DNA from: Candidatus Bathyarchaeota archaeon | GTDB lineage: Archaea > Thermoproteota > Bathyarchaeia > Bathyarchaeales > Bathycorpusculaceae | DNA: 64,000 nucleotides | NCBI GenBank assembly: GCA_026014485.1 | Contig: JAOZIE010000023.1 | Location: 124,001 to 188,000 of the forward strand | Reading direction: 5' to 3' | Shown here: piece by piece, positions 15,634 through 24,371 of the stretch | How the letters are laid out: each line of letters opens with the position of its first letter | Position numbering within the stretch: position 1 is the first letter of the stretch | Made by a program: the position numbers and the translations under genes | The notes under the pieces: generated by a model | Database searches by the model: none | What the model was told of the DNA's origin: nothing | What the model saw: only the letters and a program-made list of their open reading frames with translations

Positions 15634-16614
15634 ATGCCGCAAGTTATCGAATGGCTAAACGCTGGTCCCGACGACATAGTCTGGCGTTACCCCAGCGAAG
15701 ACATTACGTGGGGCGCCCAACTCATCGTGCAAGAGTACCAGATGGCGGTGTTCTTCCGAGACGGCAAAGCCTACGACGTATTCAACGCGGGACGCCACAC
15801 CCTGACAACCCTGAACCTGCCGCTGCTGACTAGTTTGTTAACACGTTTAGCGGGGTTCGGCGGTAACAAGCCCTTCAAAGCATCCGTTATATTCATCAGC
15901 AGCAAGGTCTTCGCTGGCAAATGGGGCACCCGCGCGCAAACCACTGAGCTGGCGCCGCTGCAGGTGTTTGGGCAGTTCTGGTTCAAAATCGAGGACGCAT
16001 CGCTGTTCGTGAACGAGGTTGTTGGTGGGCAAAACGCTTACACCACCGACGAAGTTAACACTTACCTGCGGGGCTTTTTGAACGAGAAAATAATTGATGA
16101 ACTCAGCCACTACGACTTAGTTACGGTGTTTACGCGGCTGGATGAAACCTCTGTTATCGTGAAGAACTCGCTGATTGACTACTTCAAACGTGTCGGCATC
16201 GAAATTACAGACCTACGCTTCGGAGGCATCGACACCACACCCGAATACCGTGAACGTCTCTTCTGGCTCAAAACAGGCAAAACCGCACCTGACGAAGTCC
16301 TGCGGATGGAGACCCTTAAGAGCGCAGCAGATTCACTGGGGAAGTCCGGTGGAGGTGGAGCAGCACTGGGAACGGGCATGGTGCTTATCCCGCAGATTAT
16401 GACGCCCACTGGTGCTCAAGCAGCGCCTGCGGCAGCCTTAGTTATCTGTCCTAAATGCAGCGCTCGAGTTCCAGCCACAAGCAAGTTCTGCCCCGAATGC
16501 GGCGCGGCGCTGGCGCCTCCAGCAGCGGGAGCCATAAACTGCCCCAAATGCGGCAAGTCGATTCCAGCCAACTCCAAGTTCTGCCCTGAATGCGGGCAAT
16601 CAATCTCCTCTTAA
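15634..16614 (+). CDS. SPFH-domain protein with two C-terminal zinc ribbons (YdjI-like)
   Basis: 326 residues. The SPFH/band-7 domain (about 15-230) is of the YdjI or 'virion core protein' type, with WRYPSEDITWGAQLIVQEYQ and DVFNAGRHTLTT near the start. A Gly/Ala linker (about 232-268) leads to two zinc ribbons, CPKCSARVP...CPECG and CPKCGKSIP...CPECG. SPFH proteins scaffold membrane microdomains. Operon context with a Zn-ribbon, a helical and a membrane protein matches PspA-YdjGHI-type envelope stress loci. Confidence 0.9.
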   Translation: MPQVIEWLNAGPDDIVWRYPSEDITWGAQLIVQEYQMAVFFRDGKAYDVFNAGRHTLTTLNLPLLTSLLTRLAGFGGNKPFKASVIFISSKVFAGKWGTRAQTTELAPLQVFGQFWFKIEDASLFVNEVVGGQNAYTTDEVNTYLRGFLNEKIIDELSHYDLVTVFTRLDETSVIVKNSLIDYFKRVGIEITDLRFGGIDTTPEYRERLFWLKTGKTAPDEVLRMETLKSAADSLGKSGGGGAALGTGMVLIPQIMTPTGAQAAPAAALVICPKCSARVPATSKFCPECGAALAPPAAGAINCPKCGKSIPANSKFCPECGQSISS

Positions 16615-16631
16615 GCGACGGGGTAACGGCT

Positions 16632-16970
16632 ATGGCGGAAGAGAGACGGCAAACCCTAACAGTTGGCGTCTTCTTACTCGTTTTGGCAGTAGCTTTACTG
16701 TTGGCGGCGACTCAAATCATAAGCTGGGGGCTGTTTGCTCCCGTGGTTCTGGTGCTGTTCGGCATCTGGATGCTGGCTTTGGCGGCTTTGCGCGGCGCGA
16801 ACCCGCAGAAGTACGCACGTGGTTCCTTTGGCACTGCTGTAATGGGTTTGCTGTTAATTGCTGTAGGCGGCGCATGGTATCTGTTCAGCGTTAACTGGCT
16901 CTATTCCATAGTCGTAATTCTGCTGGTTGTGGCAGTTATCGCAATTGTAGCTGCCCTAAAACGCAAATAA
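16632..16970 (+). CDS. Small membrane protein closing the SPFH operon
   Basis: 112 residues with four hydrophobic helices at about 10-30, 33-51, 66-84 and 87-107, and a basic C-terminus (LKRK). No motif. ATG 16632 follows ACGGGGTAACGGC, 18 nt after the SPFH stop. It would anchor the operon's complex if that role is right. Confidence 0.75.
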   Translation: MAEERRQTLTVGVFLLVLAVALLLAATQIISWGLFAPVVLVLFGIWMLALAALRGANPQKYARGSFGTAVMGLLLIAVGGAWYLFSVNWLYSIVVILLVVAVIAIVAALKRK

Positions 16971-16974
16971 CCCC

Positions 16975-17000
16975 GCGGAGCCCTTTTTTGGCTCCCGCCT
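16975..17000 (+). terminator. Hairpin terminator after the SPFH operon
   Basis: GCGGAGCC at 16975-16982 pairs with GGCTCCCGC at 16990-16998 (one bulged C) around a T-rich loop, followed by CTTTTAATTTC. Archaeal termination needs mainly the U tract, so the hairpin is supportive only. Confidence 0.45.
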
Positions 17001-17154
17001 TTTAATTTCTGGTCCTGCCTTTCTGGCAAAGAAGCCGAACCAGAAGTTATTATGTGAAATCCTTGTTTTCTTTGTTTTTGTGCTGCTTTGATTTTTTGAT
17101 TCAACTCATTGCGGATACATTAATGTACCCCCACAGTTTCTTTAGAGGTGCCCA

Positions 17155-19596
17155 ATGAAGCATCGTTATTGGATACTCGTTGCCCTGCTCACGACTATTC
17201 TAATTCAAACATACGGTGCGTGCCAAGTTACCTGCACAACCGCAAGTTCCACTACTGACAATTGGACAATGTTTCAATATGGTCCGAACCGTTGCGGTTA
17301 CACCAATTGTGGGGACACAACAAACTCTGCTGAACTTTTGTGGGCTTTCACAACAGGTGCCTCTGTATATTCCTCTCCAGTGGTAACGAACTCTTCTGTT
17401 ATCATAGGCGCTGGAGATGGTCACGTTTACTGTCTTAATGCTTCAGATGGAGCGTCTCTGTGGCAGTATTCAAATGGCAGCACGAAAAATTATTATTCCT
17501 CTCCTGCAGTCAGCGAAGGACGTTTGTACATAGGTTCAAGTGACGGTAACCTAACCTGCATAGACAGCGGCACTGGCCTGTCTTTTTGGGTAACGAATCT
17601 TAACGGTGCCGTTTGGTCTTCTCCGCTTATACTAAATGGCTGCGTCTACGTGGGTTCCAAAGATTGCAATTTCTACTGTCTTAATGCTTCAAACGGCGAC
17701 ACCCTATGGAGGTACCCAGTAGAGGGCACCCTCGGCTCTTCACCCGCCTTCGCAGATGGCATAGTCTATTTCAGTTCAGATTACTATGTTTACGCCGTTA
17801 ACGTAACCACCCGAGAAGAAGTGTGGCATACTTTCACTGAGAGCGGCAGCAACTCCCCCGCCATATACGAAGGATGCCTGTATATAGGTGCCAATGACGG
17901 CACAATTCTCTGTTTAAACGCGTACACTGGTGTTATCAACTGGAAGTACGTCACCTATGACTCGGTGGTTTCTTCGCCCGCTGCAGCTTACGGATGCATC
18001 TACATAGGCTCCGAAGACACCAATCTTTACTGTCTTAACGCTTCAACTGGCGAGAAAATCTGGCAAACCCCCACGGGATATTGGATTTGTTCTTCGCCTA
18101 TAGTCTCAGGCGGCAACGTGTACATTTGCTCTCAAGATTACAACATATACTGTCTTGACGCCTTCACGGGCTCCATCAAATGGAGCTATTCAACAGGAGC
18201 AGCCGTAAACGCTTCCCCCGCAATCGCCGACAACACCCTCTACATCGGCTCAGATGACAACTTACTGTACGCTTTCACTTTATGTAACTCCACTGAAAAT
18301 AACCCTCCTCCACGCCCTGATGGCTCCTTAAAGTTTTCTACAATGGTTATCGATACAGTTGCCTGTGCTCTATTCATCGGAATCATCCCCGCATTTGCTT
18401 TCCTCTTCGTTAAATCAAAGCGGCGCACGGGGCAACCAGTTGACCTTGAAGCCCAAAAAATGCCTTGGTATAAGAAGCACATCGACTTGCTCTGTGTGTT
18501 GGTTATTCTGTCTTTTGCGATAATTCTTTTTCTCAATTTAGAAAACTCAATTCTCTGGGTTGATGATGAACAAACATACTCACAATGGTCATTTCACATG
18601 CTTAAAACAGGCGATTACCTGACTCCTTGGAATTTCGGCATTACCTCCTTGTGGATAGGCAAACCGCCCCTTAACATGTGGCTGGTGTCTCTTGCTTACC
18701 AATTCTTCGGAGTTAGCAATTTCAGTTCACGATTCTGGAGTGCGCTATTTGGCGGCTTATCTTTAGTTCTCATGTACTATTTAGGAAAAACCCTCTACAA
18801 CCGTTATGTGGGGATGCTCTCTGCTTTAGTTTTAGGAACCTTCACAATGTTCTACACGTTTGCAACACGCCTGATGACTGATGTTCCGCTTGTTTTCTTC
18901 ATTCTAGCCAGCATATACTTCATGATTCTAAGCGAGAAAACAAAACATCCCTTGCTGTACCCTGCTCTAAGCGGTTTATTCTTCGGGTTAGCGTTAATGA
19001 CAAAGCAAACTGAAGCTTTGTTGATTCCCGCGATTGCCTTTACCTACTTGGTCTTGACAAGAAGAAACCTTGTGTTTCTTTTCACTAAACGGGTCGCTTT
19101 GTTTTTCGGGGTTGCCCTTCTGGTTTTTGCGCCTTGGCTCATTGCCATGAGCGTTCGTTTTGGCATGGATTTCTGGAACTATTACTTCCTATATTCCACC
19201 TATATACGTGTGATAAGCCCTATCGAAGGGCACGTCGGCGGCTTTCTGTTTTACTTCAACTACATAGCCACCCATGAGAACCTGCTTTGGTTAATTCTGT
19301 TACCTTTCTCAGTTGGACTCAGCTTATACTGGGCTATCAAACGCTCCAAAAGCGACCTTTTACTCATTACATGGATAGCCATCGTGTTCTTGGTGTTCAC
19401 CATTGCCCAAACAAAACTCCACTACTACATACTCCCCGTTTACCCCGCTTTTGCCCTTGCCATAGGCAGCCTATTGTATCAGCTTTCAAAGAAAATATGG
19501 TCTTCCACGTACCCCCACCGGCTTAACCTGGAAAGCAAAACCCATATTGCAGCCCTTAAAACGAAAATAGTATCCATTAGAGCTTTATTGCTCTAA
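17155..19596 (+). CDS. PQQ-type beta-propeller fused to a GT39-like glycosyltransferase
   Basis: 813 residues. A signal peptide (1-22) is followed by an extracellular propeller (about 40-375) with repeated blades such as VYCLNASDGASLWQY, FYCLNASNGDTLWRY and LYCLNASTGEKIWQT. After a transmembrane helix (about 395-415) comes a multi-helix GT-C domain (about 440-800). Its first outer loop has LWVDDEQTY, placing the catalytic acid, and GKPPLNMWLVS follows, as in the ArnT/PMT (GT39) family that uses polyprenyl-phosphate sugars. The combination suggests surface glycosylation coupled to a binding propeller. The GT domain is shorter than many GT39 enzymes. Confidence 0.85.
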   Translation: MKHRYWILVALLTTILIQTYGACQVTCTTASSTTDNWTMFQYGPNRCGYTNCGDTTNSAELLWAFTTGASVYSSPVVTNSSVIIGAGDGHVYCLNASDGASLWQYSNGSTKNYYSSPAVSEGRLYIGSSDGNLTCIDSGTGLSFWVTNLNGAVWSSPLILNGCVYVGSKDCNFYCLNASNGDTLWRYPVEGTLGSSPAFADGIVYFSSDYYVYAVNVTTREEVWHTFTESGSNSPAIYEGCLYIGANDGTILCLNAYTGVINWKYVTYDSVVSSPAAAYGCIYIGSEDTNLYCLNASTGEKIWQTPTGYWICSSPIVSGGNVYICSQDYNIYCLDAFTGSIKWSYSTGAAVNASPAIADNTLYIGSDDNLLYAFTLCNSTENNPPPRPDGSLKFSTMVIDTVACALFIGIIPAFAFLFVKSKRRTGQPVDLEAQKMPWYKKHIDLLCVLVILSFAIILFLNLENSILWVDDEQTYSQWSFHMLKTGDYLTPWNFGITSLWIGKPPLNMWLVSLAYQFFGVSNFSSRFWSALFGGLSLVLMYYLGKTLYNRYVGMLSALVLGTFTMFYTFATRLMTDVPLVFFILASIYFMILSEKTKHPLLYPALSGLFFGLALMTKQTEALLIPAIAFTYLVLTRRNLVFLFTKRVALFFGVALLVFAPWLIAMSVRFGMDFWNYYFLYSTYIRVISPIEGHVGGFLFYFNYIATHENLLWLILLPFSVGLSLYWAIKRSKSDLLLITWIAIVFLVFTIAQTKLHYYILPVYPAFALAIGSLLYQLSKKIWSSTYPHRLNLESKTHIAALKTKIVSIRALLL

Positions 19597-19643
19597 GCGT
19601 TTCTTATTTTATACATCAGTCAATTTAACAGAAGGCACTTGTG

Positions 19644-21245
19644 ATGAGTGAAAAAATAGTCGGTCGCGGCACATGGTACGACCTCATGGCGAAAAAGGTA
19701 GTTGACCGAGAAAAGAAGCTGGGCAGAAACACCGACCGAATCCGCACGGAGATGGGTCTTGGCGCCTCTGGTTTTCCTCACATCGGCAGCTTAGGCGATG
19801 CCTCCCGCAGCTACGCCGTCACGTTGGCGCTTAGGGATATGGGCTTCAACTCGGAGTTAGTGGCCTACTGTGACGACAAGGACGGACTCCGCAAGGTCCC
19901 CGCTGGCTTATCTAAAGATTTGGAGAAGTATCTGGGGCACCCCGTTTCCAGCATCCCCGACCCATTCGGATGCCACGAAAGCTTTGGCAAACACATGAGT
20001 TCGCTGCTGCTCGAGTCACTGGACAAGTGCGGCATCGAATACCGATACTTCAGCGCAAAGGAAGTTTACGAGAAAGGCATAATCCTACCCGAAATCCGCA
20101 CCATACTAGCGAATGCGCAGAAGGTGGGCGAAATCGTCAAGGAAGAAGTCGGGCAGGAACGTTACACCGAGCGGCTACCCTTTTTCCCCGTCTGCGCCAA
20201 ATGCGGACGCATCTACACCACCAACGCCTACGCGTTCGAACCGAAAACCGACAAGGTGCTCTACAAGTGCGAGGGTTTGGAAATCCGCGGCAAACTCATC
20301 AAGGGCTGCGGCCATGAGGGCGAAGCCGACATAACCAAAGGCGAGGGCAAGTTGACTTGGAAAGGCGAATTTGCCGCCCGATGGAAAGCCCTCGACATCA
20401 GGTTTGAAGCGTTCGGCAAAGACATAGCCGACTCCGTACGCATCAACGACCGCATCAGCCGCGAAGTCCTCAACTTCGAGCCACCCAGCCACGCCCGCTA
20501 CGAGATGTTCCTTGACAAAGGCGGCAAAAAAATCAGCAAATCTGCAGGTAACGTGTTTACGCCGCAGGTTTGGTTCCGCTATGGCAGCCCCCAGTCGCTT
20601 CTGCTGCTGATGCTAAAGCGGTTCGTGGGCACCCGCAGCTTGGACGTTTCAGACATCCCCTCATACATGAACGAGTTGGACTACCTTGAAGAAGTTGTCT
20701 TCGGCACAAAGCAGGTCAGCAAACGGGAACTGGTGAAGCTGAAGGGCTTATACGAGTACTGCTGGGTCACTAAACCACCTGCCAAACCCAGTGTGCATGT
20801 ACCCTACAACCTGATGGCGTTCTTAGCCAAGATGGCGCCCAAAGAGAACCCTGAAGATTTCATCGCTGACACGTTACGCAGCTACGGTTACCTGCAGAAG
20901 AACCAGCAAATCGACGACGGGTTGCGGCAGCGCATCGAGTACGCCTTCAACTGGGTTCTCGACTTCGAGGAGATAAAGGAAACCTCGGTTACCCTGTCGG
21001 AGCAGGAACGCACAGCCATATCGACTCTGCTGGAAACACTAAACGCCGAGGCAGATGCGGACAAAATACAAAACGCCATATTCCACGCCGCCAAAAGCAA
21101 CGGTCTGCAACCGCGCAGCTTCTTTAAGCTGCTCTACACGGTGCTGATGGGCGCGCCGCAGGGACCCCGCTTGGGACCTTACGTGCTGGCTATGGGCAAA
21201 CAGAACGTAGTTGCCGCGCTGCAGCGTGCGTTAGCCAAACGCTAA
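19644..21245 (+). CDS. lysS: Lysyl-tRNA synthetase, class I
   Basis: Charges tRNA-Lys using the class I enzyme found mainly in archaea. HIGH-type motif in GFPHIGSLGD (about 45-54), KMSKS-type motif KKISKSAGN (about 293), and a zinc-finger region with CAKCGRIYTT and KGCGHEGEA. Length 533 is normal. GTG 19641 directly precedes ATG 19644; the ATG is preferred. Confidence 0.96.
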   Translation: MSEKIVGRGTWYDLMAKKVVDREKKLGRNTDRIRTEMGLGASGFPHIGSLGDASRSYAVTLALRDMGFNSELVAYCDDKDGLRKVPAGLSKDLEKYLGHPVSSIPDPFGCHESFGKHMSSLLLESLDKCGIEYRYFSAKEVYEKGIILPEIRTILANAQKVGEIVKEEVGQERYTERLPFFPVCAKCGRIYTTNAYAFEPKTDKVLYKCEGLEIRGKLIKGCGHEGEADITKGEGKLTWKGEFAARWKALDIRFEAFGKDIADSVRINDRISREVLNFEPPSHARYEMFLDKGGKKISKSAGNVFTPQVWFRYGSPQSLLLLMLKRFVGTRSLDVSDIPSYMNELDYLEEVVFGTKQVSKRELVKLKGLYEYCWVTKPPAKPSVHVPYNLMAFLAKMAPKENPEDFIADTLRSYGYLQKNQQIDDGLRQRIEYAFNWVLDFEEIKETSVTLSEQERTAISTLLETLNAEADADKIQNAIFHAAKSNGLQPRSFFKLLYTVLMGAPQGPRLGPYVLAMGKQNVVAALQRALAKR

Positions 21246-22802: not shown

Positions 22803-24371
22803 ATGAAAGCTAAAATTTCCCTATTGCTGATTTTGGTGACTCCTGTTATGCTTGTTGCTGTTACACCGTTTCCAGCTAACTCAGCAATCACCCAACTCTG
22901 GAACTTCAAATGCGACACCTCTTGTATCTCATCTCCTACAATAGCAAACGGTTTGATTTACGTAACCTCCAAAAACGTAGCTTCCCCAGACACCCACTTA
23001 TACTGTATCAACGCGTCCGCTGGAAACCAAGTTTGGGGTCGCTTTGCAAGTCCCTTGAACTTCGTCGTTACAGACGGGTACCTTTACGTAAGTGAGGGCA
23101 TGAGTTACGACGGCTCAGTTTCCTGTCTTAACGCCTACAATGGGAAACAGATATGGAGTTGCGGTGGAACAGGCTTTAGCTCTCCGGCTGTAGCTGAAAA
23201 CCGCATCTACATTGGCGGGTCTAATGTTGTATTCTTGGGTTCAGCAGCAGATGGGAACGGCTATAATTGTAATTTCACTGGGTTCATTTGTGCAGTTGAC
23301 GCCACAACAGGTCACGAGATTTGGCGGTATTCAGGCATAAATTGCACCGCTTTTGGCGATCAAACGCTGATTCTTTCAGATGGATATCTCTATGCAATAA
23401 GTAATTACCATCTGGCTGGTAAGTCTTGGACTAATGGGGTTTACGCAATTAATGCTTCAACTGGAGAGAACATCTGGGCATACACAGCTACTGACACCTT
23501 TTTTGATTCTTCCACCGCCATGAACGGTTATGCATATTTTAGGTATCATCAAACAAATTCTCAAGGCGTTTCTTTTTCGGGTGGCATAATAGCCTTTGAC
23601 TCCTCCAATGGAACTATACTGTGGGACTTCCCAGTCGTCCTTACTCAGGATTTAGATGATTCCTTTGATGCTGCTCCTATCGGGTCTCCGGTTGCATACA
23701 ACGGTGTAGTTTACGAAGTTGTAGAAAACAGCGGTGCCTACGCACTGAACGCATCTGACGGAAAAATAATCTGCCATTACAGCGTTGAGCAAGGACTAAC
23801 GTATTCAAGCCTGACTCCGCCTCTGATTGTGGATGACAAACTTTACCTTTTGTCTTCTGTGGGCTTGCATTGTTTTAACTTGCACAGCGGAACGATGATG
23901 TGGAGCTTTATCCCCGCAGACAACAAATCTTTTGGAAGCTCCCCAGTTTATGCTAACGGACTTCTCTTCGTGGGTTACAATACTAGTCTTTATGCGATTA
24001 ACGCCTTCACAGGCAATTCAGTTTGGAATTATACTTTTGGATACGCTGTTGGGTCCCCCTTGATTGACGCAGACACTGTCTACATAGGTGGAAGTGACTT
24101 GAACGCTGGTACCTTCCTTGCAGAGGGAGGCGTTGTTATCGCTTTAAAACCAGATTTCATGCTACTGCCTCCTCCAACCTCAACCCCCAGCCAGACATCC
24201 ACTTCACCTACTCTAACTTCGTCGCCTTCACCCACTTCCTGTTCAACACCAACTTCCGAGCCTTCGCCTTCCATCCCAGAGTTTCCCTCTTGGTTTGCTT
24301 TGCCGTTTTTGGCGTTGATGATTCTGGTGGCTGTTGCTGTTAAGAAAGTCAGGAGGGCTTCACGGGTTTGA
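22803..24371 (+). CDS. Secreted eight-bladed PQQ-like beta-propeller with PEFP C-terminal anchor
   Basis: About 522 residues. A signal peptide is followed by eight repeats of the blade motif (for example VSCLNAYNGKQIWS, ICAVDATTGHEIWRY, VYAINASTGENIWAY, LYAINAFTGNSVWNY). A Ser/Thr/Pro linker leads to a tripartite tail: IPEFPSW, a transmembrane helix and the basic KKVRRASRV. This is the layout of archaeal C-terminal sorting signals. A TATA-like CTTTATGG near 22759 puts the transcript start at about 22790, favouring ATG 22803 over GTG 22791. It overlaps the next gene by 4 nt. Confidence 0.85.
   Translation: MKAKISLLLILVTPVMLVAVTPFPANSAITQLWNFKCDTSCISSPTIANGLIYVTSKNVASPDTHLYCINASAGNQVWGRFASPLNFVVTDGYLYVSEGMSYDGSVSCLNAYNGKQIWSCGGTGFSSPAVAENRIYIGGSNVVFLGSAADGNGYNCNFTGFICAVDATTGHEIWRYSGINCTAFGDQTLILSDGYLYAISNYHLAGKSWTNGVYAINASTGENIWAYTATDTFFDSSTAMNGYAYFRYHQTNSQGVSFSGGIIAFDSSNGTILWDFPVVLTQDLDDSFDAAPIGSPVAYNGVVYEVVENSGAYALNASDGKIICHYSVEQGLTYSSLTPPLIVDDKLYLLSSVGLHCFNLHSGTMMWSFIPADNKSFGSSPVYANGLLFVGYNTSLYAINAFTGNSVWNYTFGYAVGSPLIDADTVYIGGSDLNAGTFLAEGGVVIALKPDFMLLPPPTSTPSQTSTSPTLTSSPSPTSCSTPTSEPSPSIPEFPSWFALPFLALMILVAVAVKKVRRASRV

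Follow-up and report, generated by a model that had tools for sequence, protein, structure and literature searches.

A conserved fusion of a PQQ-type beta-propeller with a predicted ArnT-like GT-C glycosyltransferase in Bathyarchaeota

A gene in the window, which is the whole 64,000-nucleotide stretch of Candidatus Bathyarchaeota DNA that was analyzed, encodes a protein in which a PQQ-type beta-propeller is followed by a membrane glycosyltransferase of the GT-C type, and this architecture is real, conserved and specific to its lineage, where the fusion has long been kept. In agreement with a preliminary description of this DNA, the gene is a single uninterrupted frame of 813 residues; it starts with ATG. 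The domains of the protein come in the order signal peptide, propeller, an additional membrane helix followed by basic residues, and GT-C glycosyltransferase (Table 1). The signal peptide, also proposed in that description, was recovered both by hydropathy and as a helix in the AlphaFold model. Pfam assigned the N-terminal half to PQQ_2 (169 bits) and Beta-prop_ACSF4 (301 bits), and the C-terminal half to PMT_2 (84 bits at 503-663, cut-off 26.1) and PMT (55 bits at 447-677, cut-off 22.7). Promoter-like matches were at the level expected by chance.

Table 1. Features of the fused gene and of its product, with positions in the window.
Feature	Residues	Position	Strand	Basis
Whole gene: PQQ-type propeller and ArnT-like GT-C transferase	813 aa	17155..19596	+	frame, Pfam, homologues
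Signal peptide / N-terminal hydrophobic helix	5-25	17167..17229	+	hydropathy; helix 4-17 in AlphaFold model
Eight-bladed BamB/PQQ-type beta-propeller	27-376	17233..18282	+	Pfam; 32 strands in model; Foldseek
Blades 6 and 7, most conserved propeller part	267-346	17953..18192	+	conservation in family
TGYW loop of blade 7, specific to fused proteins	307-310	18073..18084	+	fused vs unfused comparison
Additional membrane helix between the two domains, with a basic tail (KSKRR) in the cytoplasm	about 395-424	18337..18426	+	hydropathy; model helix 395-424
GT-C glycosyltransferase core, ArnT/PMT_2 type	438-785	18466..19509	+	Pfam, profile and fold matches
First extracellular loop, equivalent of ArnT D55/E56 (catalytic)	D471-E472	18565..18570	+	27/27
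Equivalent of ArnT K85, donor phosphate contact (KPP)	K503	18661..18663	+	27/27
Equivalent of ArnT D158, acceptor side	D576	18880..18882	+	27/27
Equivalent of ArnT K203, salt bridge to D158	K617	19003..19005	+	27/27
Position of ArnT R270	R685	19207..19209	+	27/27
Candidate metal or donor site	E691-G-H693	19225..19233	+	E691, H693 27/27; alignment
Equivalent of ArnT Y345, near donor phosphate	Y758	19426..19428	+	26/26 rows without a gap

A profile of the transferase half was searched against 163 genomes of the order and gave matches in 24 genomes. Reading the frames around these matches revealed 27 intact fused frames in 22 Bathyarchaeota genomes, which belong to six genera and two families. 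The fused open frames are 762-874 codons long (one, in G085, runs off its contig), and the named records with the fused gene are all Candidatus Bathyarchaeota MAGs. It had been considered beforehand that a misassembly around 18300 might have joined two genes, or that homologues might always be separate proteins. Nothing was found in favour of the first possibility, or of a sequencing error to the same effect. We regard its probability as negligible, and it is ruled out because the same junction, with a membrane helix and a linker in all, is found in 27 frames from 22 separate genomes; the second is contradicted by the same fused homologues. The preliminary description of one protein of unusual architecture, in which a propeller outside the cell is joined to a membrane transferase of the GT-C type, is supported. 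As a stand-alone protein, the transferase half was seen in a single close relative (375 aa, 45-47% identical), and a GT2 gene adjoins it. In a 300-genome sample of the phylum, no close relative was detected outside the same family at a strict threshold; the next relatives in named genomes were Omnitrophota transferases, which are unfused and about 33% identical. In addition, a search of open-licence papers found no description of this combination of propeller and transferase. Extra copies were observed at two loci: two intact fused genes lie side by side in G109:C5, and in G097:C58 (L085:2208-4611) a broken second copy with internal stops lies just upstream of the intact one.

The transferase half modelled alone (pTM 0.79) had ArnT as its best fold match (TM 0.69 by query length), followed by AglB, STT3 and Pmt4. 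Residues were paired through an alignment to ArnT, using a construct-to-native offset of three residues that was verified on residues given in PMC7801869; the same paper describes the roles of ArnT D55/E56, K85, D158, K203 and Y345. Because the catalytic and donor-contact residues of ArnT are invariant in the family (Table 1), the fused protein is likely an active polyprenyl-phosphate-sugar transferase, both activity and donor type being read from sequence. All 16 members scanned match GT-C profiles of the PMT_2 clan, and the acidic residue that follows the first core helix in these enzymes is present within a GT-C fold (D471 and E472, 27/27). The first loop had been described as DDE-type; D471 and E472 are indeed kept in every frame, but D470 is not conserved, which leaves DE only. 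The HEH metal motif of ArnT is likewise missing from its expected place, and the invariant E691-G-H693, which sits a few residues later, may serve instead.

Profile comparison also placed the transferase nearer to ArnT (9.6e-29) than to yeast Pmt1 (6.6e-4). With respect to GT83, no solved protein is closer than ArnT in either sequence or structure and the catalytic and donor residues are kept, whereas the NCBIfam ArnT equivalog model reached 129.6 bits against a cut-off of 567 and the C-terminal periplasmic domain of ArnT is missing, the match ending at construct residue 370-374 of 578. With respect to GT39, neither PMT_4TMC nor MIR, the latter a feature of eukaryotic members, was present in any of the 16 members scanned. 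Furthermore, the same genome has a separate 650-aa protein with PMT and PMT_4TMC and a soluble stretch near its N-terminus, encoded at L130 (G000:C12:72500-79500) beside a GT2 gene, in a cluster that also includes a GT87-type protein and is likely the protein O-mannosylation locus of this genome. Together with the weak Pmt1 match, these observations do not support the GT39-like assignment made in the preliminary description, and the transferase is here called an ArnT-like PMT_2 protein, outside GT39 as judged from profiles and models and with no CAZy family assigned to it.

The membrane helix between the two domains, with basic residues after it, is present in 27/27 fused frames. The chain runs from the signal helix through the propeller and a single helix followed by basic residues to the first core helix, which leads into the D471 loop. 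Given this order, the propeller and the loop should lie on the same outer side, so that propeller and active site are predicted from hydropathy and charge to share the outer membrane face. In the full-length model (pTM 0.51) the linker has pLDDT <50 and the relative placement of the domains is unreliable.

In the AlphaFold model of the fused protein, built from 15 family members, the propeller (pLDDT mostly 80-93) has 32 strands arranged as eight four-stranded blades, which makes exact the earlier count of about eight, and strand 58-66 closes the last blade. The best solved matches in Foldseek were the designed Cake8 (TM 0.94), BamB (about 0.8) and YxaL, with TM normalised by target length, and the eight four-stranded blades and PQQ_2 repeats place the domain among the PQQ/BamB-type propellers. 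A PQQ-dependent dehydrogenase was rejected (TIGR03075, 90 bits against a cut-off of 480); the term PQQ names the repeat only and there is no sign of the cofactor. Conservation is uneven along the propeller: mean entropy at matched positions is 0.92 in blade 6 and 0.73 in blade 7, compared to 1.22-1.38 in blades 1-5 (blades 6-7 versus blades 1-5, Wilcoxon p 8e-6). The TGYW loop was found in 26/29 fused frames and in 0/29 unfused propellers; W310 is kept in 26/27, and position 309 is Y or F in all 27 fused members. Two further frames with TGYW, L072 and L073, come from loci where the fused gene is present in tandem or broken copies, and were taken as pieces of that gene. Since blades 6-7 and TGYW are selectively conserved in the fused proteins, the propeller probably has a task specific to the fusion, and the pattern argues for either acceptor docking or contact with the transferase domain.

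We propose that the protein is a surface GT-C enzyme of the ArnT/PMT_2 kind in which the propeller is a substrate-docking module, the fusion having a single origin; taken as a whole, we give this explanation an even chance. The enzyme would draw its sugar from a carrier of the polyprenyl (dolichyl) phosphate type at the outer membrane face and pass it to an acceptor outside the cell, for which a surface glycoprotein or the glycan on it is the most likely candidate. D471 would be the catalytic residue, K503, R685 and Y758 would surround the donor phosphate, and D576/K617 would be on the acceptor side. The one extra membrane helix would tether the propeller beside the outward-facing active site, where it would replace the C-terminal soluble domain of ArnT as docking module and hold the acceptor mainly through blades 6-7. 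Recognition of the acceptor by the propeller is plausible and docking is our leading idea, but it is also the least certain part of the explanation, weakened because the conservation of blades 6-7 could come from folding or from contact with the transferase. The unreliable domain placement in the model, the loss of HEH from its ArnT position and the gene neighbourhood described below also count against the explanation.

Propellers are a common local building block in this genome: about 20 frames contain 81 PQQ_2 matches, many of the frames coding for long (>900 aa) proteins of surface type, and this large protein set probably sits at the cell surface. This is in line with a different role, somewhat unlikely in our view, in which the transferase is active and the propeller is structural, anchoring or spacing the enzyme in the surface layer or binding its lattice, with no part in acceptor choice. 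Such a role is also favoured by conserved sequons that occupy the same loop (LNASTG) of several blades in the fused family (N95, N177 and N216 in 15/15 members of the alignment, N255 in 14/15 and N295 in 13/15) and hint that the domain is glycosylated at the surface. A sequon seems to be an inherent part of the blade repeat in this lineage, although the sequon excess in the propeller of the window protein is not significant (10 against a shuffle mean of 6.3, with 7.3% of shuffles reaching 10). However, the conservation of blades 6-7 and TGYW only in fused proteins points to a fusion-specific task and not to a purely structural propeller.

It could also be that the substrate modified by the enzyme is a lipid, a lipid-linked glycan or an N-linked glycan, much as lipid A is for ArnT, and that the propeller binds glycan and not protein. 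ArnT is the closest relative of known function and modifies a lipid, and polymer-modifying GT-C enzymes related to ArnT have been described (PMC11127046). Moreover, the genome encodes one STT3/AglB, hence probably has N-glycans to modify, and the separate PMT+PMT_4TMC protein is available for protein O-mannosylation. Nevertheless, the acceptor of a GT-C enzyme cannot be read from its sequence and the Pfam scan found no known glycan-binding family in the propeller half, and we consider this alternative as a whole unlikely. The docking proposal itself can be taken one step further, to surface glycosyltransferases that form a class of their own in this lineage and whose blades 6-7 would capture a particular surface protein or glycan and present it to the ArnT-like site, in a process distinct from AglB N-glycosylation and PMT O-mannosylation; we offer this only as a tentative possibility.

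The genes around the fused gene differ among its relatives, and because of this variation no acceptor is suggested by linkage. The surface proteins encoded at 22803, 24368 and 54525, put forward earlier as targets, consequently gain no support, and in the window no donor-synthesis gene adjoins the fused gene. A class I lysyl-tRNA synthetase and an SPFH/Band-7 protein are encoded near the fused gene in the window (15634-21245), in L041/L078 and in L082, while in L083 the synthetase alone was seen; these recurring neighbours suggest descent in place and not a functional link.

The 27 transferase halves formed one clade against five others (SH-aLRT 91), and the 27 propeller halves formed one clade against 12 unfused propeller rows (support 81), both supports being moderate. 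Because each half forms one clade, a single old fusion event is the simplest history, and the trees are consistent with a fusion that arose once and is old. In the transferase tree the closest grouping of the window protein is with L068 (94), but the propeller tree puts it with L062 (97), a conflict that hints at domain exchange between copies, or at tree error. Regarding the parents of the fusion, a PQQ protein in the same genome, L127, has a signal sequence and a propeller followed by one helix at the C-terminus that bears RRRR, and a protein of this type would be the expected kind of parent for the N-terminal half. Since every fused member has the inter-domain helix and L127 shows the corresponding layout, it looks as if the gene of a surface propeller protein, including its own C-terminal membrane anchor, was linked in frame with an entire short transferase gene.

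To our knowledge, surface glycosylation in Bathyarchaeota, which are widespread and uncultured archaea, has had no bench study. The putative docking domain, built in on the active-site side, offers a direct handle for finding the acceptor because the propeller can be made alone as bait. The fused gene also looks like a clear case of an enzyme gene capturing a surface protein, and, if the tentative extension of the docking proposal is true, it would represent a substrate-selected extracellular sugar-modification system of Bathyarchaeota.

Among known systems, the fused protein shares with ArnT (GT83; PDB 5EZM/5F15, from Cupriavidus metallidurans) the GT-C fold, the DE of the first outer loop, the K of KPP and the equivalents of D158/K203, R270 and Y345, but it is without the C-terminal region of ArnT, has not kept the HEH motif and has in addition a propeller at its N-terminus and one more membrane helix. 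The AglB/STT3 oligosaccharyltransferases are also GT-C proteins with a large extracellular domain; unlike the fused protein, they transfer a whole oligosaccharide to Asn and have a C-terminal soluble domain and no propeller, and the STT3 model gave no match to the window protein in the Pfam scan. BamB and the YxaL-type propellers have the same eight blades and PQQ_2 repeats, whereas they are separate soluble or lipid-anchored proteins with no transferase attached. The GT39 enzymes Pmt1, Pmt2 and Pmt4 have in common with the fused protein the PMT/PMT_2 clan, the GT-C fold and the DE motif, but not PMT_4TMC and MIR, which it lacks. In the eukaryotic PMT-clan proteins TMTC1-4 the soluble repeat domain fused to the transferase consists of C-terminal TPR helices, whereas the domain found here is an N-terminal beta-propeller. 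Like the fused protein, TMTC1-4 have a GT-C core of the ArnT kind (PMC7801869). With this protein, the propeller joins the soluble modules known to be attached to transferases of the GT-C type.
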